NCBI RefSeq assembly: GCF_036186745.1
Contig: NZ_CP108086.1
Span: forward strand, 4,278,001 to 4,342,000
DNA: 64,000 nucleotides
Origin: Microbispora hainanensis
Lineage (GTDB): Bacteria; Actinomycetota; Actinomycetes; Streptosporangiales; Streptosporangiaceae
Direction of reading: 5' to 3'
The notes under the pieces: generated by a model
Seen by the model: the letters and a program-made list of their open reading frames with translations, nothing else
What the model was told of the DNA's origin: nothing
Database searches by the model: none
Shown: in pieces, positions 30,191 through 39,478 of the stretch
Numbering within the stretch: position 1 is the first letter of the stretch
Layout of the letters: every line of letters starts with the position of its first letter
Position numbers and translations under genes: made by a program

Positions 30191-30311
30191 CGGGTCTTCC
30201 CCGCATCGGCGCCGTCGGTATCGAACTTCCATGGCGGTTGCCGGAGAGCCCGTGGTCGGCGCCGTAACCTCTTGCCGCGCCTGCGCGCATCCCCATCACG
30301 GCCACTCCCGC

Positions 30312-31028
30312 TCACTCTGAGCGCGGAGCAGCGCGATCGCCGTGTGCCGCCGCGAACCGATCGAGGAAGTCGAGGTCGTCCGCCGTGACCATCACGGCCA
30401 TTCTCGCGGGCGCTCTCCGCCGGTCGAAATAATCGCCGCCTTCGACGGTATTCGGCGTGCCGCTGTTTTCATTTGATTTGTTGTGGGGCCGGCGGGATTC
30501 GAACCCGCACTGTACGGCACCTAAAGCCGCGGTCTCCTGCCGTTGGACTACGGCCCCTTTTCCTCTTCCCTTTCCTGCGAAGTTCTCCGTCTGAGAATGG
30601 CAGTTCGGGCAGAGAAATCTCAGATTGTCTTTTCTGTTGTCCAGCCAGTTTCCGTTGATGTGCTCGATGTGCAATGTCAACGGCCGACCTTGCCAAGTGC
30701 CGCCTATCTTACAGTCTGCGCAGCGGTAGGGAACTCCCACTTCGCGAAGCGCCCGGCGAAGCTTCGTCGGCTTCTCGCGGGTGGCACCCGGGTGGTTCAG
30801 GACCAGCACCTGCGCCGGAAGGCTCCGCCGTGGTGACGCCTGCCCCCGCCTGTGGGCCTGGCCGAGGAAGTGGGATGTGTCGATGCCGAAGTGCTTGAGG
30901 CGGCGGCTGATGTGGGCGTGGGCGCCGCCCGACCAGGGGATGCCGAGATAGCGCAGCACGTCGGCGATGCTGGTCGCGCCGGCCGCCGCGTCGGCGAGCA
31001 GCTCGGGGGTGTATTTGTACTTCGCCAT
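30312..31028 (-). CDS. HNH endonuclease whose frame runs through a tRNA gene
   Basis: An open frame of 238 codons. Residues 1-65 form a helical DNA-binding-like module (LLADAAAGATSIADVLRYLG and ISRRLKHFGIDTSHF). The HNH nuclease domain spans about 95-145: zinc cysteines C103, C106, C140 and C143, the catalytic H123 in HIEHINGN, N135 and a final CPNCHS. There is no stop after the domain. The frame continues into a tRNA gene whose first base is the first base of codon 158, crosses it, and ends 55 codons later. The start ATG at 31028 has TAAATT seven bases upstream, so a leaderless mRNA is likely. The part after residue 157 may never be translated if the tRNA is excised. Confidence 0.8.
   Translation of the reverse strand: MAKYKYTPELLADAAAGATSIADVLRYLGIPWSGGAHAHISRRLKHFGIDTSHFLGQAHRRGQASPRRSLPAQVLVLNHPGATREKPTKLRRALREVGVPYRCADCKIGGTWQGRPLTLHIEHINGNWLDNRKDNLRFLCPNCHSQTENFAGKGRGKGAVVQRQETAALGAVQCGFESRRPHNKSNENSGTPNTVEGGDYFDRRRAPARMAVMVTADDLDFLDRFAAAHGDRAAPRSE
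30484..30557 (-). tRNA. Unusual tRNA, anticodon UAG, short variable loop
   Basis: The 74 bases fold as a complete cloverleaf. Acceptor stem GGGGCCG/CGGCCCC, D stem of three good pairs with a mismatched fourth, anticodon stem GCGGC/GCCGT with loop TTTAGGT, five-base variable loop, T stem GCGGG/CCCGC with loop TTCGAAT, discriminator A. CCA is not encoded. The anticodon UAG reads the leucine codon CUA, but bacterial tRNA-Leu normally has a long variable arm, which is missing here. The gene lies inside, and in the same orientation as, the HNH endonuclease frame, directly after its nuclease domain, so it has probably no promoter of its own. Amino acid identity is uncertain. Confidence 0.88.
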
Positions 31029-31085
31029 GCCCCGGAATTTATCGGCCGCGACCGACAATTCCGGGAGTGTGGCGAAAGGGATATC

Positions 31086-31553
31086 TCAGGAAATTCCCAG
31101 CTCTTTGGTGAGTCGGGCGACATGGCCGGTGGCCTTCACGTTGTAGAGGGCCTTCTCGACCTTTCCGTCCGGGTCGATGATGAAAGTGGAGCGGATGACG
31201 CCCATCACCGTCTTGCCGTAGTTCGTCTTCTCGCCGTACGCGCCGTACGCCTTGTGCACGTCGAGGCCGGTGTCGGACAGCAGCGGGAAGGTGAGCGCGT
31301 CACGCTCACGGAACTGCCGCAGCTTGGCGGGCTTGTCCTTGGAGACGCCCAGCACCACGTAGCCCTGCTCGGTCAGCGCGCCGAGGTTGTCGCGGAAGTC
31401 GCAGGCCTGCTTGGTGCATCCGGGGGTCATCGCCGCCGGGTAGAAGTAGAGGATGACCCGCTTGCCGCGGAACGACTCCAGCGAGACCTCGTTTTCGTCG
31501 GCGTCGGTCAGGGTGAAGTCCGGCGCGGGGTCGCCGGGCTGGAGCTTGCTCAT
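31086..31553 (-). CDS. bcp: Peroxiredoxin of the BCP (PrxQ) family
   Basis: A thioredoxin-dependent thiol peroxidase, cytoplasmic, 155 residues. The peroxidatic C46 and resolving C51 lie in TPGCTKQACDFRD, preceded by VILYFYPAAM. Normal length for the family. The start is ATG at 31553 with GGAGG at proper spacing. The HNH gene begins 57 bases downstream on the same strand but probably has its own promoter. Confidence 0.95.
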   Translation of the reverse strand: MSKLQPGDPAPDFTLTDADENEVSLESFRGKRVILYFYPAAMTPGCTKQACDFRDNLGALTEQGYVVLGVSKDKPAKLRQFRERDALTFPLLSDTGLDVHKAYGAYGEKTNYGKTVMGVIRSTFIIDPDGKVEKALYNVKATGHVARLTKELGIS

Positions 31554-39144: not shown

Positions 39145-39187
39145 GCGCACCTCGGAAGGACGGATGCTGCGTTTGACTATCGGGCAT

Positions 39188-39375
39188 CCTCCCCCTCTGT
39201 CATCGGCGCCTGAGAGCTTCGTCCGATCTTTGCCGGACTTTCACCTTCGGCGAGGCCTGACGGCCTTCTTTCCAGAGGTCACCTGGCCCGCACGGTCCTT
39301 TGCCTTGAGAGGTTCGCGGGGAGGGCTTGCTCCTTCAGGGGCCCTGACCGGATGCCAGGACGCTCTCCCGCACGG
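39188..39375 (-). promoter_or_regulatory. Tandem glycine riboswitch
   Basis: On the minus strand the region contains two consecutive aptamer patterns. The first runs from GGGAGAGCG (near 39368) through GAAGGAGCAAGCC and CTCTCAAGGCAAAGGACCG; the second from GACCTCTGGAAAG through CCGAAGGTGAAAG, CCGGCAAAGATCGGAC and ends with AGCTCTCAGGCGCC. These are the conserved elements of the two-domain glycine riboswitch. It lies about 45 bases before gcvT and should activate gcvT-gcvH-sdaA at high glycine. Confidence 0.88.
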
Positions 39376-39478
39376 GATCACCGGTGTGCTGCAAGCCTAG
39401 TGGGTCGCCGCCATCCCCGTAACCGGCCGGATCACCTGATTTCCCCTGTCACTTCCCGGCCGTGCCATCCCGTACGGG

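Follow-up and report, generated by a model that had tools for sequence, protein, structure and literature searches.

The window analysed here is a 64,000-nucleotide (nt) stretch of the Microbispora hainanensis chromosome (NZ_CP108086.1, positions 4,278,001 to 4,342,000). Its minus strand carries an HNH endonuclease gene whose open reading frame (ORF) runs through a tRNA gene with a UAG anticodon. We conclude that this is probably a homing endonuclease gene of the HNH type, free-standing, specialised on the gene for tRNA-Leu(UAG) and enclosing the tRNA in Streptosporangiaceae, and that the window holds a decayed copy. The evidence is evenly balanced on a stronger reading. According to this reading, a homing endonuclease gene holds a tRNA gene needed by the host, in frame, between the parts for its catalytic and its DNA-binding domain; the same RNA would serve either as tRNA or as linker, the two uses being mutually exclusive in any one transcript, and deletion of the selfish gene would be difficult, since the only tRNA found to read CUA would tend to go with it.

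The HNH reading frame and its embedded tRNA

The HNH ORF spans 30312-31058 on the minus strand, with an ATG at 31028 and a stop at 30312-30314. ARAGORN and Rfam (RF00005, 54.2 bits for a cut-off of 29) make a single tRNA call on the same strand, at 30483/30484-30557. The first base of the tRNA, 30557, is the first base of HNH codon 158 ((31028-30557)/3 = 157), and the HNH frame contains no stop codon upstream of or within the tRNA. Both programs and the coordinates thus confirm what an earlier note had read from the sequence alone, namely a UAG tRNA starting in frame at codon 158 of an HNH gene with no stop before it. That note missed that the HNH ORF heads towards a DNA-binding domain past the tRNA. 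This domain is of the ribbon-helix-helix (RHH) type and is intact in relatives. The window copy is decayed: its HNH part is open and its RHH part is broken.

The HNH nuclease domain of the window copy (residues 103-149 from the ATG) scores 20.7 bits with Pfam HNH PF01844, slightly below the 21.4 cut-off, which is exceeded in relatives L039 and L107. The window protein also matches PHROG 10822 ‘HNH endonuclease’ (1.2e-49). In an alignment of 17 sequences, W112, H123, G126, R132, N135, R137, C140, P141 and C143 are invariant; the alignment and the PHROG match place the zinc-ligand motif CxxC/CxxCH in the family. Among domain-library matches, no GIY-YIG family was found; HNH families were matched instead. 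On the 5’ side of the tRNA, the 12-nt distance to the HNH domain is identical in 11 other Microbispora loci (L034-L043, L046). The tRNA fold is not exceptionally stable (z score -1.27; 22 of 200 shuffled sequences are equally good). A sigma-70 pattern scan of the locus found no promoter, a result that says little in an actinomycete, and no Rfam intron reaches the gathering score in the window.

The HNH gene accompanies tRNA-Leu(UAG) in actinobacteria

Across 84,980 species genomes, a scan confirmed at least 557 HNH relatives; counts of named loci refer to the best 80. Seventy-nine of these come from actinobacteria, and each has a UAG tRNA no more than 700 nt from the HNH match, in agreement with the earlier view that the nuclease travels with its tRNA. 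The two genes lie on the same strand at 76 loci and on opposite strands at three (L128, L131, L160), where they converge; the side of insertion is therefore not fixed. The tRNA is class I at 37 of the 79 loci and class II (long-armed) at 42. The 80th locus, L158 from Calothrix sp. NIES-4105, has its HNH gene within a large tRNA array whose members include short Leu-type tRNAs (UAA-like, CAA). The bcp gene is found at 62 of the 80 named loci, sometimes on the far side. As the context varies and bcp is not universal, the tRNA is the constant partner.

Linkage that recurs at 79 of 79 actinobacterial loci is not due to chance. In an ordinary overlap, an HNH gene would by accident have a tRNA downstream, and its ORF would drift through it, since GC-rich DNA has few stops. 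By our own reading of the sequence, two of the three frames across the window tRNA are stop-free, and the window tail is decayed, as such an overlap would allow. The linkage, and the RHH domain found past the tRNA at all ten named read-through loci (see below), contradict this explanation, which we regard as very improbable.

Among 20 loci examined, the 16 closest (L033-L048) have the UAG tRNA 3’ of the HNH gene on the same strand. The four weakest have a UAA tRNA (L049), a Thr tRNA (L050), a Pro tRNA (L051) and no tRNA (L054). At L049 (G046:C43:197-273), a related HNH fragment lies 69 nt upstream of a class I UAA tRNA; it may represent a sister lineage that is linked to a different tRNA gene.

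Insertion of the HNH gene next to an older tRNA gene

Loci without the HNH gene were collected from among the listed matches of a UAG tRNA pattern in 60 genomes, some of them ending at contig ends. All 26 keep a UAG tRNA, which is class I in 10 and class II in 16; 18 of the loci also have bcp. Because these relatives retain the tRNA, often by bcp, the HNH gene is a dispensable insertion beside an older tRNA gene.

Within Microbispora, the HNH gene occurs in 13 of 15 genomes, the host included. Genome G005 has bcp and the tRNA, and the HNH gene was not found there; G004 and G010 keep the tRNA and have a broken HNH gene; in the fragmented genome G014, neither the HNH gene nor a UAG tRNA was seen. 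Occupancy is thus sporadic, with an empty site in G005 and broken copies in G004, G010 and the window. Presence, absence and decay inside one genus are the pattern expected of homing endonuclease genes. The protein is most likely a tRNA-gene-targeting homing endonuclease, and of the two roles proposed in the earlier note we judge the homing-type unit to be the best reading. The other role, a system supplying an extra decoding tRNA, is not supported: besides the window tRNA, no second one with a UAG anticodon was found in the host, and HNH-less relatives have one too.

Alternatively, the gene may be domesticated and serve the host in controlling or protecting tRNA-Leu(UAG), for example through a defence role or because its transcription is thereby coupled to a neighbour. 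The proximity of bcp at most named loci and the purifying selection on HNH are in line with such a role. It is nevertheless improbable, as the HNH gene is not found or broken in the Microbispora genomes just listed, G005, G004 and G010 keeping the tRNA all the same, and as its relatives also sit in viral arrays next to varied tRNA types.

Viral relatives and known systems

In viral contigs, 104 loci were confirmed. Among the best 80, a tRNA lies within 700 nt of the HNH gene at 72, and the ORF overlaps a tRNA at 22, two of them on the opposite strand. Viral relatives sit in tRNA arrays beside many tRNA types. In the same viral records, tRNA proximity was observed for 18 of 21 members of the window HNH family versus 1 of 9 from other HNH families; this control comprised 30 PF13392 matches with loci, which gave 13/15 versus 6/15 when sorted by coordinates and the former figures when re-sorted by profile score. 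In a tree of 157 HNHs, 44 have no tRNA within 150 nt downstream. For 14 of the 39 labelled viral HNHs on the tree, the tRNA is the same as that of the nearest relative, where 3.2 are expected and 11 is the maximum in 1000 shuffles. A phage collection contains an HNH relative in 213 records. The HNH gene of Escherichia phage mistaenkt stops 1 nt upstream of a tRNA-Leu in an array. The recorded host of a phage carrying an HNH relative is E. coli K-12 MG1655, which makes HNH-family homing on tRNA genes testable in an ordinary laboratory.

These features recall the HNH homing endonucleases of phage tRNA arrays, known from mycobacteriophages and Mycobacterium arrays. The window HNH and a phage-array HNH both match PHROG 10822, and in both cases the gene lies among or beside tRNA genes. 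In contrast to the arrays, the window has one chromosomal tRNA-Leu(UAG) and no visible array, and in Streptosporangiaceae the tRNA separates two domains encoded by the ORF. The accessible parts of PMC5966550, PMC6409571 and PMC6582537 describe HNH genes within tRNA arrays, not in-frame nested tRNAs, and already contain the idea that array HNHs spread tRNAs. From the accessible text of PMC13096335, SegB of T4/T6 lies beside tRNA genes, cuts within them and promotes their amplification; cutting, amplification and spread of tRNA genes by SegB of T-even phages also appear in the accessible parts of PMC6409571. By analogy, SegB may be taken as a working model for the window HNH, although its catalytic family differs (GIY-YIG) and the portions of PMC13096335 at hand do not speak of a tRNA inside the SegB gene.

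The new element here is an HNH ORF that crosses the tRNA in frame into an RHH domain, observed in six Streptosporangiaceae genera. We found no published report of a tRNA in frame between homing endonuclease domains, nor of a link between an actinobacterial HNH and tRNA-Leu(UAG); few subscription journals were covered, and this is weak evidence of absence.

An RHH domain beyond the tRNA

The ends of the HNH ORFs were compared at 92 distinct loci (104 rows minus 12 duplicate pairs). The ORF ends before the tRNA at 34, inside it at 31 and passes through it at 24; at three the HNH gene is broken upstream. Some of these loci were retrieved with the composite protein, which biases the set to full-length copies, so that the 76 named loci with a same-strand tRNA, which come from an HNH-only search, give the fairer count. 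L308 (G009), with an altered CPNCH motif, was excluded from the ORF-end, start-codon, UUA/selection and pN/pS sets. The earlier note would have called the coupling accidental if related HNH genes lacked the tRNA or ended before it. The outcome is mixed: none of the 79 actinobacterial loci lacks it, but at 34 of the 92 distinct loci the ORF ends before it.

At the 31 loci ending in the tRNA, the stop is at position 8 (U8-A9-G10) in 14, at a D-loop UAA in eight and at the anticodon UAG in four. Micromonospora loci (L120, L125 and L140 among them) have 430-465 nt between HNH and tRNA and an extended ORF, often stopping at the D-loop UAA or the anticodon. This gap was searched for a class I tRNA remnant; in the one copy scanned, L120, it matches helix-turn-helix or transposase-like profiles instead, below cut-offs.

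Among the 76 named loci, an RHH domain follows the tRNA in all ten read-through ORFs (in frame in eight) and at 2 of the 63 loci whose ORF stops in or before the tRNA. The 92 distinct loci give 23/24 for read-through ORFs (21 in frame), 2/31 for those ending in the tRNA, 0/34 for those ending before it and 2/3 for the broken ones. RHH domains are absent from all 26 HNH-less loci. In the relatives, both HNH and RHH are under purifying selection. For nine chosen pairs of relatives, the ratio of non-synonymous to synonymous differences (pN/pS) in the spacer between tRNA and RHH is 0.58 in the HNH frame versus 0.92 and 1.34 in the other two.

An intact RHH homologue resembles ParD RHH structures and, by sequence, MazE9; NCBIfam and Pfam ParD matches remain below cut-offs. 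Except for the N-terminal helix-turn-helix and the RHH, the structure model of the whole composite is poor. Unlike ParD and MazE9 antitoxins, the composite RHH continues the HNH frame, and limited searches showed no toxin gene downstream. A home-made pattern, used with no positive control, detected no MazF-like motif in 104 loci, and no toxin families were found among eight downstream ORFs of six loci. A toxin-antitoxin pair is thus not supported, within this limited search.

These data can also be read as two genes, an HNH homing endonuclease gene by the tRNA and a separate downstream RHH regulator or former antitoxin with its own start, the common frame being an inherited accident. Several observations favour this view over nesting. 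An ATG, GTG or TTG lies upstream of the RHH strand at 15 of 20 intact loci, the RHH is ParD/MazE9-like, and at 4 of 14 named RHH loci it is out of frame with HNH. Moreover, gap length and tRNA length vary together partly by construction, which makes nesting slightly less and two genes slightly more probable. We hold the nested arrangement to be evenly balanced and the two-gene arrangement to be rather unlikely. The latter leaves several facts unexplained. Five of the 20 intact copies have no such start codon (rarer start codons not counted), and the starts present elsewhere vary in kind and place. RHH is missing not only from the HNH-less loci but from 61 of the 63 named HNH loci stopping in or before the tRNA, and the expected toxin-like neighbour was not found in the limited searches.

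The tRNA and its decoding in the host

The host genome is 8.8 Mb in one contig. The stretches read cover 55 of its 56 tRNA matches, the remaining one being at 8773508, and contain 51 distinct tRNA sequences. Three leucine tRNAs are class II (CAA, CAG and GAG). One UAG and one UAA tRNA were found, both class I with a short variable loop; that of the window tRNA has 5 nt (ACAGT). Bacterial tRNA-Leu is normally class II. The window tRNA shares with the canonical form the UAG anticodon, the A discriminator and the reading of CUA as Leu, but has no long variable arm. A pattern search of the host genome returned no class II UAG or UAA tRNA; the patterns demand the common T-loop and miss tRNAs with other T-loops. 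At a UAA pattern match at host position 2783641, ARAGORN calls no tRNA.

Codon meaning was examined in 129 ORF pairs (42,225 aligned codons) between the host genome and relative G001. Of 26 CUA codons, 23 stand opposite leucine, as do all 9 UUA codons; with the direction of comparison turned round, the counts are 20 of 26 and 7 of 8. Reassignment of CUA is thereby ruled out. Because CUA and UUA align with leucine, the class I tRNA must deliver leucine, if it is truly the sole reader. An amber suppressor is also ruled out, as it would need a CUA anticodon; the window anticodon UAG reads CUA leucine codons.

Proposed mechanism

We propose that the HNH would cut tRNA-Leu(UAG) loci lacking the element, and that repair would then copy the nuclease gene along with its tRNA. 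Gene conversion after such cuts might account for the alternation of class I and class II UAG tRNAs at the locus. In Streptosporangiaceae, the predicted order of the ORF is the HNH domain, the tRNA read as a linker of about 25 residues and a C-terminal RHH DNA-binding domain. One transcript could then give either the tRNA, with RNase P and 3’ processing destroying the message, or the endonuclease, by translation across the tRNA. Processing and translation would compete, as the earlier note had suggested. For transcripts with a stop inside the tRNA, RNase P processing would leave a nuclease message without stop codon. Loss of the element would risk loss of the CUA-decoding tRNA, which may favour its persistence.

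If this holds true, the locus would offer a clean test case for RNase P processing versus translation on one RNA and a model for the in-place replacement of tRNA genes. It would also illustrate self-protection by a selfish gene that wraps around a gene required by its host.

In the composite loci L301-L327, in-frame reading of the enclosed tRNA gives the rare codon UUA at the anticodon loop; at least one UUA is present in each of the 20 intact composites.

Features of the locus

Table 1 Features of the HNH/tRNA-Leu(UAG) locus (window positions, except where host genome is stated)
Feature	Position	Strand	Evidence
N-terminal helix-turn-helix-like part of HNH protein, residues 5-56	30861..31016	-	
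HNH nuclease domain, CxxC...CPNCH motif, residues 103-149	30582..30722	-	PF01844, PHROG 10822, alignment
12-nt spacer (GRGK), HNH domain to tRNA	30558..30569	-	
Class I tRNA-Leu(UAG), 74 nt, A discriminator, CCA not encoded; in-frame translation GAVVQRQETAALGAVQCGFESRRP	30484..30557	-	ARAGORN, Rfam RF00005
In-frame spacer, tRNA to RHH remnant	30402..30483	-	Frame open
RHH remnant, split over two frames, apparent frame-shifting deletion	30300..30401	-	Hidden Markov model matches in two frames, sequence
bcp-like peroxiredoxin, old neighbour of tRNA-Leu(UAG), outside the element	31086..31553	-	AhpC-TSA
Class I tRNA, UAA anticodon (host genome)	1135378-1135450		

Elsewhere in the window, tandem glycine riboswitch aptamers are found at 39187-39380 on the minus strand (65.2 and 51.6 bits).
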